From positions 319,580 to 383,579 of the forward strand of contig JAAHGF010000004.1 of NCBI GenBank assembly GCA_010672585.1: a stretch of DNA of 64,000 bases, given 5' to 3'. Made by a program: the position numbers and the translations under genes. Within the stretch, counting starts at the first letter, position 1. Every line of letters starts with the position of its first letter. The notes beneath the pieces were generated by a model, which ran no database searches, had not been told where the DNA came from, and worked only from the letters and a program-made list of their open reading frames with translations. The DNA is from Okeania sp. SIO1I7. GTDB lineage: Bacteria > Cyanobacteriota > Cyanobacteriia > Cyanobacteriales > Microcoleaceae. Shown here piece after piece: positions 4,116 through 55,358 of this stretch.

Positions 4116-4699
4116 ACTTTTGTAATACATTTTGAAGTGCAGAATATTGGTTAATCTATTGACAAAGTTCAATAAAGTTTGACAGGCCGTAATAGTTGTC
4201 AATTTGATTAATTTTGACTAAAGGCACATCACTATGAAGTATTTTTTCCTATTCCTACGCAGGGCATTTATTGTGTCCTTGGTGGGCATATTTTTGTCTG
4301 TAAGCACATTTATCTCAACGTTGGCCCTTGACCCGCGCTCTCCCGCAGGGGAGCTAGGGCATGAAAACCAATCAATGTTGCGCTTTCACACATAATCTGT
4401 TAAACTGTAAAAGCTCAAGTAAGTAAACAGTAGATGGTTGAAAAAGCATACAAATTTAGATTTTACCCAACTCCAGAACAGGAAAATCTGTTGCGGAGGA
4501 CGTTGGGTTGTGTGCGCCTAATCTACAATAAGGCTTTAGCTGCGAGAACTCAAGCTTGGTATGAAAACAAAGAGCGAGTAGGGTATAAGCAAACTTCTGC
4601 TATGCTGACGAACTGGAAAAAGCAGGAGGATTTAGATTTCCTAAAAGAAGTCAGTAGCGTCCCATTACAGCAAGGCTTAAGACATCTACAAACTGCTTT

Positions 4700-4720
4700 T
4701 CCTGCGGAATGCTGCGCAAA
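4700..4720 (+). repeat. 21-bp insertion element inside tnpB
   Basis: The block begins TCCTGCGGAAT and ends GCGCAAA. Removing it restores the expected TnpB residues TAFTNFFSGRAKYP. The same 21-mer, or its inverse, is found at about 2660, 2848, 10405, 10849, 48404 and 62164. Confidence 0.75.
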
Positions 4721-5292
4721 CACTAACTTTTTCAGTGGACGTGCCAAATATCCCAACTTTAAGAAAAAGCGCGCCGGGTGGTAGTGCAGAATTTACCCTC
4801 GTCCGCATTCAAGTGGAAAGATGGTCAAATATATTTGGCTAAGTGTGCTGAACCATTACCTATTAGATGGAGTAGGCAACTGCCACAAGATTGTGTCCCT
4901 AGCACAATTACAGTCAAGGCTGACCCCTGTGGTAGATGGTCTGTTTCTTTAAGAGTCAATGATACCAGGAATTTATTGCTCTTGCCAGTTAACAAACAGA
5001 TAGGCATTGACTTAGGAATCACCAGCCTCTTAACTACCAGTGATGGTGAAAAAATAGCTAACCCAAAGAATTTCAACAAGTTATACAAAAAATTAAGGCT
5101 AGCTCAAAAATCACTTTCTCGTAAAACCAAAGGTTCTAATAACTACCATAAAGCTAGACTGAAAGTAGCTAGGATACACGCAAAAATTAAAGATTCGAGG
5201 CTTGACTATACTCACAAGGTAACGACTCAACTGATTAGAGAAAATCAAACTATTGTAGTCGAGGACTTGGGAGTAAAAAACATGGTAAAAAA

Positions 5293-5343
5293 GCGGTGCG
5301 ACCCCGCGACGACGTCAGTCGCAAGGGAACGCGCACCAAGAGA
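5293..5343 (+). repeat. 51-bp GCGGT...ACCAAGAGA element, inside tnpB (copy A)
   Basis: Begins GCGGTGCG and ends CGCACCAAGAGA, so GGTGCG pairs with CGCACC. The other tnpB copy reads straight from VKN to HK at this point, so the 51 bases (17 codons, no stop) are an insertion. Confidence 0.8.
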
Positions 5344-5583
5344 CCACAAATTAGCAAGAGCTATAAGTGATGCTAACTGGTCCGAATTAGTCAGGCAATT
5401 AGAGTACAAAGCTCAATGGTATGGTCGTCAATTAATCAAGATTGATAGATATTTTCCCAGTTCTAAACGTTGCTGTAGTTGTGGGCATATAGTAGAAAAA
5501 TTACCTCTAAACATTAGAGAGTGGGATTGTCCAGAATGTGGTAGTCACCATGACAGGGACATAAACGCTTCGATCAACATTTT

Positions 5584-5634
5584 GCGGATGGGAACCCGCG
5601 TCGGCGTCAGACGCAAGGGAACGCCCACCAAGAA
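5584..5634 (+). repeat. 51-bp GCGG...ACCAAGAA element, inside tnpB (copy B)
   Basis: Begins GCGGATGGGAACCCGCG and ends GCCCACCAAGAA. It shares the core GTCAGxCGCAAGGGAA with copy A. The second tnpB lacks it (NIL followed by AAG), again giving a precise 17-codon insertion without stops. Confidence 0.8.
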
Positions 5635-5639
5635 GGCTG

Positions 5640-5786
5640 CGGGAGGAGCAGTGTCAGTCTGTGGAGCGCGCTTTTAGACCCGAAGAGAGTAAATCTCGGA
5701 AGGCGGGTGCATTGAAGCAGAAAGTTCCTAACAGTGATGCTAGGGAATCCCGCGCTGTCTCGTGAGAGCAGCGTCGGGAGGATGTC
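5640..5786 (+). ncRNA. Predicted omega-RNA / right-end scaffold of the tnpB element
   Basis: About 110 bases after the tnpB stop are highly similar to the right end of the copy at 16730-16838 (reverse strand), although they do not code. They can fold: CCCGCGCTG pairs with CAGCGTCGGG around a short loop, with a smaller hairpin before it. In characterised TnpB systems the omega-RNA is made from the 3' end of tnpB plus the right end, and the guide starts at the element border. Its presence here is inferred by analogy. Confidence 0.5.
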
Positions 5787-6449
5787 AAAGGAGAAGCAGT
5801 TGCTGATTATACACCCCTCCTAAAATGTAGTCCAAATATTCGCTATGGAGCAAGTACCGACTGTGGGAAAAAGAATCTCGAATCTCTTAAGATTGGCCTC
5901 AAAAAAATGAGAGAAATGGGATGTAAAGACCCGCGTAGCTGGTATTATCAGGGAGCCATTCATTGGATACCTACCAAACCTGCTGATATATTAGCAATCT
6001 GGGAAGAGAATCCATTGTGTCCTTATTATTCTGAATTTCCTATAAAAGATGATTCTCTTACTTCCGGTAGTGATAAATTGCTTGCCTCCTGGGATAACTG
6101 TGCCCATGGCACTAATCAAGCTGGTCAGAGTGCACACATTCACTTTTTGCCCTGGCATCGACTGTATTTGGATAGTTTTGAAGAAATTGTGCGGAAATTG
6201 TCCGATGATAAGAACTTCAGCCTTCCCTATTGGGACTATATCAGTTTATTTGATATAAAACTCCCAGATAAAAAACGGCTAACTATGCCCGAAGAGTTTT
6301 ACAATCAACCAGATGAGTGCAACCCCTCGTTTAATAATTGCAACTCCCTCTATGAGTCAGGAAGAGGCTGGAGATTGGTGGACCTGTGGATGAAACTATA
6401 ACTGTTAATAGGTTAGACATCTACACTCGTGAATAGCAGGCTATTTAAG

Positions 6450-6540
6450 CAGTGAAGAGCCATAATATTAATCTCTTGACAAAATGCAATAAGGTCAAAA
6501 AGACTCTCATAATTGTCAATTTGATTAATTTTGACAGGAC
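6450..6540 (+). repeat. Second copy of the tyrosinase-gene upstream region
   Basis: TTGACAAAATGCAATAAGG followed by AATTGTCAATTTGATTAATT closely matches 4160-4217, directly upstream of the tyrosinase start. The repeated stretch contains TTGACA and TTGTCAA motifs that could be promoter or operator sequence. The tyrosinase gene was probably once part of a tandem pair, with the second gene lost; no start codon with coding sequence follows. Confidence 0.6.
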
Positions 6541-6577
6541 TTAAGCAAAGAGACTATACATAGCACATACTAATTTA

Positions 6578-6610
6578 GGCGATCGCTAAACCCATAGAGC
6601 GATCGCCTTT
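6578..6610 (+). terminator. Hairpin made of two HIP1 sites followed by TTT
   Basis: GGCGATCGCT and AGCGATCGCC form a perfect 10-bp stem with a 10-base loop and are followed by TTT. It could end transcripts from the tyrosinase remnant. It may also be a chance pairing of two HIP1 palindromes. Confidence 0.45.
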
Positions 6611-6739
6611 CCCATCAAAACCCCCTTAACCCCAGGAACAACATTTTCATTCTATGAAGCTCCAAAAAAAGAAGTGGGGTCGGAAAGAAAATAGGCTTGC
6701 ATCCTCAAACAAACTCTGATAGTATAATGTTATTGGGGT

Positions 6740-7120
6740 GTGTTCGCTAGTACGCTAGACTTTTTATTCAACTGCAAAAACATGAAAGTTGAAAGTAAAA
6801 AAATCAAGCGATCGCCTCCCAGACAACTCCCAGGCAATCTCAAGTTAAGGCATTCTCTGAAGCACTCCCGAAAAAAGAGGCACCAAAAGTAGAATTAGGA
6901 TTGCCATAAAAAGGATAACTGATAACTGAAAAAAGGTGATCGCCTCCCAGACAACTCCCAGGCAATCTCAAGCCAAGGCATTCTCTGAAGCACTCCCGAA
7001 AAAAGCGACACCGAAAGTAGAATTAGGATTGCGATTTCAAACCAAATGTGATTGAATTAAATTCAACAGGGGTAACTCGCCCATACGTTAGACTTTTTAT
7101 TCAACACAAAACATATCCGA
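6740..7120 (+). repeat. Direct duplication of about 95-125 bp, possibly of a gene 3' end
   Basis: The block from CGCCTCCCAGACAACTCCC to GAATTAGGATTGC occurs at 6819-6905 and again at 6941-7033. Each copy can be read as ASQTTPRQSQ(V/A)KAFSEALPKK before a stop, so it may derive from a lost gene's C-terminus. GCTAGACTTTTTATTCAAC also occurs on both sides (about 6752 and 7088). Between 7120 and 7560 I see only AT-rich sequence without a gene. Confidence 0.6.
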
Positions 7121-7699
7121 AAACTGAAAAAAACTCCCTTTAGATATCACACAAACAACCTTTTGTCAAAACAGCAAAAAACGACCAAAGAAAAATTAGT
7201 CATTTTGAGCAAAGAAAATTTAGACAAAGATCGGGCAAGACAACAGCATAATAGGAATTAACAGCCTTAAAACTCAATCAAGATATAGAATGCTCCAACT
7301 ATATCACAAGTATAGAATATCACAAAATTGAAAAAAACCCCTAAAAATATTGAAACCTCGTTAACCAACTCAGAAAAATTTCTCCATTTAACAATCAGAC
7401 AAAAACGTTAAAGTTTAAAATATTAAAACCAAAAACAGAAACCTATAACTACATATAATTTAAACCTCCAAAAAAAAATATGATCAACCAAATCAAAAAT
7501 GAAAAAACAAACATTTATTCAAATAAATATTATTAGGCACATTCGCAGCTCATCAATGGAACATTATTCACCGAAAAATTGGGTTTGAAGCCTCCCCCTT
7601 TTAGGGGGACTTTGTGCTATACATAAAAAAGCGGAAAGGTATTCAACCGTTCTAAAAACCTATAGCTACGTAAATTGTAGTGTTTGCACCTTGAAAACT

Positions 7700-7750
7700 G
7701 CGGTCAGACCCCGCGTCGCGGTCAGGCGCAAGGGAATGCTGACCAACAGA
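7700..7750 (+). repeat. 51-bp GCGGT...ACCAACAGA element (copy C, intergenic)
   Basis: Begins GCGGTCAGACCCCGCG and ends GCTGACCAACAGA, so GGTCAG pairs with CTGACC. The core matches copies A and B, and the length is again 51 bp. The surrounding 7560-7990 holds a partial MITE (7565-7612) and no convincing gene. Confidence 0.75.
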
Positions 7751-7990
7751 AGAGTTATGGAGTTTTGTACAGTAATGCCTGTACATGGAAAAGCTCTAAG
7801 CAACAAGTACCAGAGAACCAAAGTTTTTTTTAGGTTTAAACTGTACCGTAGGGCATACAGTAACAGGCTCTTGAAATAGAGCAAACGCGCAGGCGTGAGA
7901 ACCATCTCTGGATTAGATTCCGTAAGGTATTTGATTTAAGTGGACTCTTTGTTGGCGTAGCCTTGCGTCAGCAAACCAAGAATCCTGGTT

Positions 7991-9058
7991 TCAGGAGAAT
8001 CTCCGCGCCTTTAGGTTGGAGAGTATGTCAACCAACTCAGACTGAATTTTTTCTAGTTGCAAATCACGACCAATCAATACTAACTTAGTCTGTTTAACTT
8101 CCTCTTTTTGCCACTGACGGTCATAGAAATAATCAAAGCGCGAACCAACTCCCTGTAAAACTAAACGCATTGGTTTATTTGGCACCGCAACAAAACCTTT
8201 AATTCGATAAATTTCATCATTTATCGCTAACCTTTTCAACTTTTCTACTAACTCTTTCGGTTCAAATTCTTGCTCTAAAATTAAATGAACAGAATTAATT
8301 TCATCATCATGTTCGTGGTCTTCCTCCGTATCATGGTGACTAGGGCGAGCATCTAAATCATCTTCAACTGCCGCATTAAATCCTAACAATACATCCGGAC
8401 TAATTTCTCCCCCTATAGAAGGAACTATTTTTACAGTTTCAGGCAACTGTTTCTTTAACCAATTTTGTACTTTATTTAAAGTAGCTTCATCAACTATATC
8501 AACCTTAGTTAATAATACTAAATCGGCACAAGCTAACTGGTCTTCAAATAATTCCTCTATAGGTGTTTCATGGTCTAAATTCGGGTCTGCTTGGCGTTGA
8601 GCTTCTAAAGCATCAATATCTCCTACTAAAGTACCATTTGCCACTGCTTCACAGTCAACAACAGTAACAACTCCATCTACAGTTGCAGAAGTCTTAATTT
8701 CCGGCCAACGAAATGCTTGTATCAACGGTTTTGGTAATGCTAACCCAGAGGTTTCTATTAAGATACTATCGATTTTTTCTCGGCGTTTTAATAGTTGCTG
8801 GATAGTCGGAAAAAATTCTTCTTGCACTGTACAGCAAAGACAACCATTTGTTAGTTCAACAATGTTATTAGTGGCATCTTCTTCATCACAAACTTGACAG
8901 GAACGTAGAAGTTCTCCATCTATGCCAACTTCTCCAAATTCATTAACTAAAACTGCAATACGACGACCTTGATTATTTTGTAATAAATGGCGAATTGTGG
9001 TAGTTTTTCCACTGCCGAGAAAGCCTGTAATTACAGTAACAGGAATTTTTGCACTCAT
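7991..9058 (-). CDS. CobW/COG0523-family GTP-binding metallochaperone
   Basis: The 355-residue protein has the family order: P-loop GFLGSGKTT at residues 12-20, the metal-binding GCLCC at 72-76 (CxCC), the TKVD GTP-specificity motif at 184-187, a His/Asp-rich stretch HHDTEEDHEHDDE at 241-253, then a CobW C-terminal domain. A second cysteine pair (CQVC, residues 54-57) is present. Members use GTP to load metals such as Zn or Co onto target proteins. The start ATG at 9058 is the natural N-terminus (MSAKIPVTVITG). It lies 1.8 kb downstream of, and on the same strand as, the cobalamin-riboswitch-controlled hupE pair, which would fit cobalt, but no riboswitch or Zur-like site was seen directly upstream. 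The metal is unknown. Confidence 0.93.
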   Translation of the reverse strand: MSAKIPVTVITGFLGSGKTTTIRHLLQNNQGRRIAVLVNEFGEVGIDGELLRSCQVCDEEDATNNIVELTNGCLCCTVQEEFFPTIQQLLKRREKIDSILIETSGLALPKPLIQAFRWPEIKTSATVDGVVTVVDCEAVANGTLVGDIDALEAQRQADPNLDHETPIEELFEDQLACADLVLLTKVDIVDEATLNKVQNWLKKQLPETVKIVPSIGGEISPDVLLGFNAAVEDDLDARPSHHDTEEDHEHDDEINSVHLILEQEFEPKELVEKLKRLAINDEIYRIKGFVAVPNKPMRLVLQGVGSRFDYFYDRQWQKEEVKQTKLVLIGRDLQLEKIQSELVDILSNLKARRFS

Positions 9059-16729: not shown

Positions 16730-17610
16730 GACATCCTCCCGACGCTGCTATACGCGAGACAGCGCGGGATTCCCTAGCATCACTGCTAGAGACTTTCTGT
16801 TTCAATGCACCTGCCTTCCAAGATTTACTCCCTTCTGGTCTAAAGGCGCGCTCCACAGACTGACACTGCGAGTCCCGCAGCCAAAATATTTACCGAAGCG
16901 TTTATGTCCCTGTCATGGTGAGCTGCACATTCAGGACAATCCCACTCTCTAATATTTAGAGGCAATTTTTCCACTACATAACCACAATTAGAACAACGCT
17001 TAGAACTAGGAAAATATCTATCAATCTTGATTAATTCCCGTCCATACCATTTAGCCTTATCATCTAATTGCCTGACTAATTCTCCCCAATTGGCATCTGA
17101 TATTGCTCTCGCTAATTTGTGGTTTTTGACCATGTTTTTTACTGCCAAGTCCTCAACTACAACAGTTTGATTTTCTCTGATTAATTGAGTAGGCGCGCTT
17201 ATGGGTATAGTCAAGTCTTGAATCTTTAATTCGGGCCTGTATCCTGGCTACTTTTAACCTCGCCTTTTGATAGTTATTAGAACCCTTGGTTTTTCTAGAT
17301 AGAGACTTCCCCGCTAATCTAAGTTTCTTGTGTAATTTGTTCAAATTCTTAGGGTTAGCAAATGTTTCTCCATCGCTGGTAGTAACTAAACTGGTAATCC
17401 CTAAGTCACTATTTTTGATATTTATCGCCGCATTTAAGTCGCGGTCTATTACTATGCCACAATGGGAACAAGAATGAGTTCGTATGTTTAATTCTTTAGG
17501 GACTTTTTCTTCACAATTTGAGCAATCTTGGCTAGTATTTTTGGGGTTCACAGCTATAGTCTTTTGTCCAGCATTTCCGGCTTTGACACTAAATTTTGTT
17601 TCTCTGGATC
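16730..17610 (-). pseudogene. tnpB: Scrambled tnpB element (IS200/IS605), chimera of two tnpB genes
   Basis: On the minus strand the right end (16730-16838, GTCGGGAGGATGTC) and TnpB C-terminal half (16840-17214: TQLIRENQTVVVEDLAVKN, CSNCGY, CPECAAHHDRDINASVNIL) match the 4.4-5.7 kb copy but without its two 51-bp insertions. A one-base shift near 17200 separates this from the RuvC-I part (DLGITSLVTTSDGE...). Upstream of that, in frame, is the zinc-ribbon tail of a different TnpB (AGQKTIAVNPKNTSQDCSNC...DRDLNAAINI). So the C-terminal tail of one tnpB has been joined to the middle of another. Both are dead. The junction runs into the 3' end of the alcohol dehydrogenase gene. Confidence 0.8.
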
Positions 17611-54792: not shown

Positions 54793-55358
54793 ATATAGCT
54801 TTCCAGAAATTACTTTAAAATTTTCTCATCAGTTACGATTAGACTTAGGAATCATGTAAAAATTAAGTTGTACAAATTTTATCTGGGATAAATTGTGAAA
54901 TATAGCTTCCATCAAAAAAAAACTGTAGGTTGGGTTAAGCGGTAGCGCAACCCAAAATATACAATTGAATTTGCACCTAAAACCTAAAACCTACCACCTA
55001 AGAACTTTATGATCGCGCTACCCGAGCGGACATGATATTATTCCCTATTCATTAATTGCGAGCAAGATGCTGGCACTATTTATCATACCGATCTACCGAA
55101 CTTGAAATAATATCATGTCCGCTGGTATCATTTGTGTAAACCCAAGGGTGAATATCTACAGGAAATTTAGGTTTTTTCAAGCTTTTAAGCCTTCTTCCTT
55201 CTTCTGTCTTCCTCTCTTGGTACGCATTCCCTCTGTTGGTCGGCATTCCCATGGCGAGGAAACCAGCTCTTGACAGAGCCGCTCCGCTAACGCCTGGTTC
55301 CGACCGCTTGCGTCTGTCGCCAACGCGGGTTCGCACCGCTTCTTCCTTACCTCCGCGC
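54793..55358. other. Repeat-rich spacer between terB-like gene and rph
   Basis: GTAGGTTGGGTTAAGCGGTAGC recurs at 31083 and 31191; ATATCATGTCCG MITE ends lie at 55027-55038 and 55109-55120. A nested 51-bp element is at 55213-55339. No gene is supported, although an 87-codon frame on the minus strand runs through the repeats. Confidence 0.6.
55213..55339 (-). repeat. 51-bp GCGGT...ACCAAGAGA element containing a second, nested element (copy D)
   Basis: Minus strand: GCGGTGCGAACCCGCG...GACGCAA (32 bases) and then, after an insert of 76 bases, GGGAATGCGTACCAAGAGA (19 bases); 32+19 is 51, and they join as in copies A-C (CGCAA then GGGAA). The insert begins GCGGTCGG and ends CCGACCAACAGA, so it is a member of the same family placed inside the first. 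Confidence 0.8.

Follow-up and report, generated by a model that had tools for sequence, protein, structure and literature searches.

The window analysed here is a 64,000-nt stretch of the genome of Okeania sp. SIO1I7 (assembly GCA_010672585.1, contig JAAHGF010000004.1, positions 319,580 to 383,579, forward strand). It contains a tnpB gene that carries two different copies of a 51-nt element, together with the other features listed below (window coordinates).

4434..4784, + strand: N-terminal part of the host tnpB, in a frame that differs from the remainder
4778..5677, + strand: C-terminal part of the host tnpB, a 299-aa ORF bearing copies A and B
5293..5343, + strand: copy A of the 51-nt element, stem GGTGCG/CGCACC, in-frame in tnpB and 3' of the VKNMVK motif
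5584..5634, + strand: copy B of the 51-nt element, stem with TGGG/CCCA, in-frame in tnpB and 13 codons short of the ORF end
7700..7750, + strand: third full-length copy of the element, stem GGTCAG/CTGACC, with no long ORF there
16840..17214, - strand: degenerate tnpB relative without either insert
55290..55339, - strand: weak, partly degenerate relative of the element (covariance-model match, 26 bits, E 3.2e-4)

Copies A and B share 87% identity over 45 nt, and neither contains a stop in the open tnpB frame. An earlier note, made from the sequence alone, had given the coordinates, ends and core of both blocks, had described them as stop-free over 17 codons and had reported that the relative at 16.8-17.2 kb lacks them; all of this held, and most other paralogues compared likewise lack both blocks. 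Its placing of the blocks within one tnpB gene was corrected in two respects. Inserts at the positions of copies A and B (sites A and B) recur in other tnpBs, and the window gene is itself broken, being divided into two ORFs (4434-4784 and 4778-5677) by a frameshift near 4780 that is distinct from the inserts. The window also holds the third full copy and the weak match listed above.

An intact 406-aa sister tnpB carrying both inserts was found on contig C25 (G000:C25, locus L032). Solved relatives exist for this protein, and comparison with two PDB TnpB chains leaves a 17-residue gap. Its structure model (mean pLDDT 81.4) kept a confident core. Residues 274-295, which take in most of insert A, fell under 50, with a confident strand (ending at E269) on the N-terminal side of the insert and a confident helix after it; insert B begins by prolonging the last helix and then enters the low-confidence end. 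Residues D185, E269 and D368, which we take to be the RuvC residues of TnpB, occupy conserved positions in an alignment of 37 rows; E269 and D368 do not vary, and D185 is present in ≥ 90%. Insert A may be a tolerated loop on this model prediction, which does not address activity.

Abundance, structure and length of the element

The 16-nt core matched the 9.48-Mb genome of the window strain 41 times at ≤ 1 mismatch, compared with 0 matches for a reversed control, and the repeat is therefore not due to chance. At least 103 matches at E ≤ 0.01 were obtained in the same genome with a covariance model (R1), a lower bound with 150 of 2315 candidates scored; 92 of the 103 were examined and 11 were left out. 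Contig C44 (751 kb), which contains the window, held 12 matches under 1e-5, of which 11 were covered by the ORF list. Five of these lie in-frame in a longer ORF (two being the blocks of the broken tnpB), one lies in a tnpB whose frame is broken, and for five no ORF ≥ 120 codons spans the copy, bar one 146-codon reverse-strand frame of uncertain standing. The twelfth copy (L139) is outside this tally.

The unit runs from a GC left end through a six-pair stem, ACCCC, an inner stem with a 7-nt loop, AAGGGAA and the other stem arm to the right end. Most copies start with GCGG on the left, and most have AAGAGA or AAGACA as the right end. Covariation was assessed on 20 copies hand-picked for diversity out of 92 distinct ones: 98.6% of cells were paired, compared with 20-42% when slid structures were used as a control on the same copies. 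Compensatory cells (changed on both sides) numbered 36 versus 8.4 after shuffling, a score that was reached in 0 of 500 shuffles. One stem pair takes the forms T-A, C-G, G-C and A-T across all 92 distinct 51-mers; its neighbour is mainly G-C and C-G, and a third pair is A-T, C-G or G-C. The unit is an imperfect hairpin, backed by compensatory changes.

Such strong covariation would also be expected of a functional structured RNA or regulatory hairpin maintained by selection in place. This explanation is very unlikely, given that no Rfam match falls on the element up to E 1 (region 4300-8000), that its presence and absence are scattered at one site, and that its hosts are diverse. We prefer to read the hairpin as a mobile element.

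The 221 examined copies (92 from the own genome and 129 from relatives) include 158 of exactly 51 nt, 14 of 52 nt and 19 of 53 nt; the 53-nt variants have an altered segment 3' of the inner loop. The copies from relatives represent 129 of 131 matches (two further copies on L115, which are also on L226, were dropped), and their search covered 80 of at least 99 stretches. Because most sequences behind the search model were 51-mers, it is biased towards 51 nt. In six distant genomes (G035, G106, G175, G215, G229 and G254), 30 of 31 copies measured 51 nt; these are 31 of 32 matches, and three from G035 overlap with the set of 221. The 51-nt length was rejected as proof of selection, since copies outside genes are likewise 51 nt.

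Flanks were compared for 134 de-duplicated 51-nt copies. The base 5' of the insert is A in 120 and the base 3' is G in 104. Flanking heptamers are identical in 26 of the 134, versus 1.9 expected by shuffling, and flank equality at 4, 5, 6 or 8 to 11 nt was seen in none of them. The equal flanks are heptamer arrays (e.g., GGCAACA, GGGAACA, GTCAGAA and GGAAGAA). The 26 heptamer-flanked copies could be taken for a 7-bp target duplication, but the tnpB sites show neither a duplication nor heptamer equality, and the flanks are therefore read here as insertion into pre-existing heptamer arrays. One inverted pair of elements was seen (L220). Head-to-tail tandem arrays of two or three 51-nt units were also observed in distant cyanobacteria (L391, G254:C14; L399, G175:C1).

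Empty and filled sites in tnpB

The empty form of site A reads GTCAAGAA followed directly by TCACAAA in L035 and L038, and exactly 51 nt are inserted between the two in L219 and L333. Copies A and B are both exact 51-nt inserts, with empty A and B sites present in paralogues and relatives, and none of the sites compared in genes shows a target duplication.

A tree of tnpB flanks was built from 93 rows, which remained of 113 site rows from 103 loci once duplicate loci and short-flank rows had been dropped. Site A is empty in 57 rows, holds the element in 13, holds another block in 22 and is in some other state in 1. The filled rows comprise 8 at +51, 2 at +53, 1 at +70, 1 at +153 and one distant tnpB (L054), also with 51 nt as judged by eye. 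These 13 rows correspond to 12 changes on the tree, at least 10 of which are forced by starred branches. A single tnpB nucleotide has been filled or emptied repeatedly; the tree was a quick build with some long branches, and gain cannot be distinguished from loss.

Three pairs match almost completely on either side of the site. Within 150 nt 5' and 3', respectively, L353 and L219 (+51) match at 149 and 148 positions, L359 and L050 (+70) at 148 and 149, and L044 and L365 (+153) at 149 and 150. For the last pair, identity between the empty locus of the own genome (L044) and the filled locus of G002 (L365) is 99.8% over 1209 nt 5' and 98.5% over 743 nt 3'. The 153 nt of L365 consist of three whole units, each within the next, with stems GTGCG/CGCAC, GTCAG/CTGAC and GTCGG/CCGAC.

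The frame is shifted in 3 of 12 filled A-site rows (53, 53 and 70 nt). At a second tnpB site, 53-nt copies on C61 and C66 shift the frame, and L272 holds 51 nt there in-frame. Many tnpB hosts are decayed. All six copies read in G215 are in-frame at a single tnpB site (in ORFs of 439-446 aa for three copies and of 298 aa for the other three), and the element-bearing insertion sequence has therefore multiplied.

Short-tract gene conversion among tnpB paralogues, with an old insert copied via a conserved motif and no repeated insertion, could also produce a scattered pattern. In its favor, insert labels are scattered over the tree, the site lies within a conserved coding motif, and an unrelated block (CCCACCCC...GGGTGGG), located in adjacent codons, shows just as much scatter (20 changes for 22 rows). 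Against it, the three near-identical pairs differ at 0-2 positions per 150-nt flank and the nearest other filled copies at ≥ 14, so that conversion tracts would need ends close to the insert; site-A inserts also vary in core sequence and length, and the element is present in unrelated genes too. We regard conversion without repeated insertion as unlikely, and a partial contribution of short-tract conversion to the tnpB pattern as possible. Repeated movement of the element itself remains the preferred reading.

Nesting and length ladders

Some copies of the element contain another, seated at or near one constant position, CGCAA^GGGAA. Under a strict rule, 19 distinct nests were counted among 154 51-nt copies with full flanks. 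Outer stems are fully paired (six positions) in 15 of the 19, compared with a mean of 10.6 when outer halves were shuffled among nests, which is a weak control because most outer stems are alike. Full pairing of the outer-left arm with the inner right arm was found in 0 of 19 nests, and inner and outer stems differ.

Nested units were traced in large proteins. A kinase of 1818 aa (Pkinase, AAA, GAF and histidine-kinase domains) has its insert between the motifs LMLxL and ISTIT. Relative to 27-nt empty paralogues (L300 in G004, L301 in the own genome), the inserts measure +51 (G001, L298), +96 (own genome, L297), +153 (Okeania sp. SIO2F4, L270) and +204 (G004, L299), all in-frame; the +96 represents two units, each three bases short. 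Four of the kinase ORFs are ~1782-1869 aa long, and that of L270 reaches only 423 aa, where its stretch stops. No kinase match at 1e-100 was found in G002 or G003. A second protein (1836 aa), with glycosyltransferase, sulfotransferase and methyltransferase domains, carries +102, and its counterpart in G001 carries +51 at the same site. The TnpB of C47 (529-aa ORF) has 68 extra codons at site A, which by hand count equal four units.

Conceivably, removal of the hairpin from the RNA or skipping by the ribosome keeps the block out of proteins. Mitochondrial bypass elements are a precedent for skipping. The stable hairpin in a reading frame, the A-rich junctions and the frame-shifting 53-nt copies in still recognisable tnpBs speak for this explanation. 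Against it, all six lengths in the kinase and the glycosyltransferase-domain protein are divisible by three, including the two 3-nt losses in the own-genome kinase, which would be immaterial if the block were skipped, and the used frames are stop-free. Skipping is accordingly rated as very unlikely, and the block is taken to be translated. This in-frame growth of proteins is itself inferred from sequence, with no transcript or protein data.

The element could also be a large member or composite of the small dispersed repeats (SDRs) of Nostoc (Elhai et al. 2008), its coding insertions being incidental. Self-nesting, a compensatory hairpin and seats in heptamer arrays are generally recognised as SDR features, and heptamer flanks were observed for the 51-nt element. 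The generally known SDR size of 21-27 nt, versus 51 nt here, counts against this possibility, which cannot be dismissed and is compatible with the mobile-element reading preferred here.

Other in-frame protein hosts

Several hosts unrelated to tnpB were identified. In a P450 of a Hyellaceae genome (L210), the element lies reversed just upstream of the PFGGG..RRC stretch (51-nt match, compared with PDB-chain relatives). In a polyketide synthase (G008, L102) it lies in the KS-AT linker (51-nt match, without comparison to relatives). A protein kinase of a Xenococcaceae genome (L261) is a further host, and in a ChlH/CobN-family protein (L239) the insert falls between two stretches matched to solved ChlH. 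The model match spans only 37-47 nt in L261, L239 and L246, and their insert lengths rest on this match without comparison to an empty relative. Other in-frame hosts are a PAS histidine kinase, a TPR protein, an O-antigen ligase (near its end) and an IS1 transposase (L400). The PAS kinase orthologue of G002 (L304) has neighbouring repeat blocks without the 51-nt unit, and that of G006 has none of them. As a separate observation, a block reading approximately KWMGTQTPTNCKHPVDGGVLNPKEKDK, beside GGAAGAA heptamers (EEGRRKK), occurs in L075, L086, L089, L019, L172 and L307; in several proteins it is in-frame, whether or not the 51-nt unit is present.

The frames used include RCDPATT, GATPRRRQ and AVRPRDD, plus reverse frames. 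All six frames are open in 30 of 92 distinct copies, versus 20% in shuffles, and for two of the six the open fraction falls below that of shuffles (0.58 and 0.59 versus 0.74 and 0.80). A special open-frame design is not claimed: relative to shuffles, some frames were open somewhat more often and these two were open less often.

The earlier note had suggested that insertions of such a family come in multiples of three, leave the used frame open and would alter proteins much as Rickettsia palindromic elements do. This reading is supported, and in-frame hosts other than tnpB were found; the 53-nt and 70-nt variants are frame-shifting. Two tests had been set beforehand by the same note, under which the claim would fall if all relatives of this tnpB carried the block or if copies showed no enrichment for 51 bp. 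Neither outcome was met: site A was empty in 57 of the 93 rows in the tree, and 158 of the 221 copies measured exactly 51 nt.

Distribution among cyanobacteria

Of 39 genomes searched as relatives, counting the own genome, 13 have an element match, among them all five of the genus; class-wide, 10 of 242 genomes do so under stricter filters. Carriers identified by name include at least Okeania, Hydrocoleum, relatives of Xenococcus and Pleurocapsa, ESFC-1, Spirulina CCY15215, Calothrix MO_167 and Richelia UBA3308, among others. The distribution is patchy across distant cyanobacteria.

Relation to known repeat families

Rickettsia palindromic elements (RPEs) are small palindromic repeats of 105-150 bp found in-frame in unrelated protein genes of Rickettsia (PMC10969869, PMC2229807). 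The RPE-4 and RPE-6 families consist of short CGTC repeats (PMC3733652). Like RPEs, the 51-nt element lies in-frame in unrelated protein genes and has relatives without the insert; unlike RPEs (~105-150 bp), it is exactly 51 nt in the majority of copies given above, is cyanobacterial and nests in itself in-frame. Some REPs (GTAG and CGTC superfamilies) lie within ORFs, where dimers or groups encode 20-30 residues and clusters 43-82 (PMC3733652). The 51-nt element is likewise a short palindrome with some copies inside ORFs, but it lacks an unpaired GTAG or CGTC end tag and has a longer two-part stem.

The SDRs of Nostoc and its relatives are hairpins of 21-27 nt with compensatory changes, self-nesting and heptamer-array seats. 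The present element resembles them in self-nesting and in sitting in heptamer arrays and differs in its 51-nt unit; to our knowledge, in-frame protein growth has not been part of SDR work. IS200/IS605 elements and RAYT transposases are known for insertion without target duplication, one strand sense and a hairpin substrate. Absence of target duplication (at the sites compared in genes), a single strand sense and a hairpin are shared by the 51-nt element, for which, in contrast, neither a partner transposase nor matching ends were identified. As to MITE-type duplication, tnpB site A has none, yet 26 of 134 copies sit between equal heptamers.

No published description of the 51-nt element was found in the literature searched, with subscription papers mostly outside its scope. 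By analogy, the element acts like RPEs and nests as SDRs are generally known to do, with a size and ends of its own.

Rickettsia offers the best-documented examples of palindromic repeats that invade proteins in-frame; outside it, cases involving REPs and MITEs are known. The present case is widespread in cyanobacteria and combines a 17-codon unit with empty and filled alleles in close genomes and nested ladders in orthologues. This system permits direct questions about the origin of protein segments, the sites at which proteins tolerate them and the movement of such small DNA. A number of hosts resemble ordinary enzymes, and their activity could be measured with and without the insert.

Proposed mechanism and its limits

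Exact presence or absence of the block, a target in one sense, targeting of the element itself, a covarying hairpin and in-frame hosts are all shown. It is likely that they reflect a cyanobacterial family of mobile hairpins that are non-autonomous and favour a 51-nt unit. Movement is inferred to occur at the DNA level without target duplication, most like that of single-strand IS200/IS605 and REP-type transposases acting in trans. No Y1 transposase was found beside the element in 8 examined loci of 10 Y1_Tnp matches (own genome only).

A unit of 17 codons, often stop-free, would add 17 residues in whichever frame it enters, and each nested unit would add 17 more while the gene remains open. 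Hosts are presumed to tolerate inserts in loops and linkers, and selection is presumed to purge frame-shifting copies from needed genes. On this inference, the 51-nt unit length and the loss of broken hosts would together preserve the frame. The recognised frame-breaking versions are all in tnpB copies; disruption of other genes is harder to spot. The element is probably neutral or slightly harmful and not a purpose-made regulator.

A bolder reading, which could as readily prove wrong as right, holds that a 17-codon unit containing its own preferred target would build a protein ladder of 17, 34, 51 and 68 residues. Spread among cyanobacteria would have occurred partly by hitch-hiking on tnpB insertion sequences, and the element would serve as a standing source of protein segments.

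Additional observations in tnpB

An insert of ~21 nt, unrelated to the element and seen by eye, is present in the tnpBs of the window (4701-4721) and of L033. It reads PAECCAN or PSECCAN and is missing from the other full-length paralogues compared; it may represent another small in-frame repeat, similar in size to SDRs.

A sub-threshold Rfam match to RAGATH-18 (29.8 bits, E 0.0085) lies over the tnpB 3' end at window 5658-5723, with copy B directly upstream, and this region is possibly a guide-RNA region. On another contig, the tnpB of L168 (G000:C66:123800-129800) has a collagen-like proline-glycine repeat upstream of its frame-shifting 53-nt copy.

The region of tnpB site A also holds a CCC-rich palindromic block (CCCACCCCCATCCCC...GGGTGGG, read NPPPSPPGRGARGVG) in L033, L039, L042, L051-L053 and others. 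It takes the place of KLARAIS in-frame, with 8 codons added as judged by eye, and is scattered over 22 of the 93 tree rows with 20 changes.
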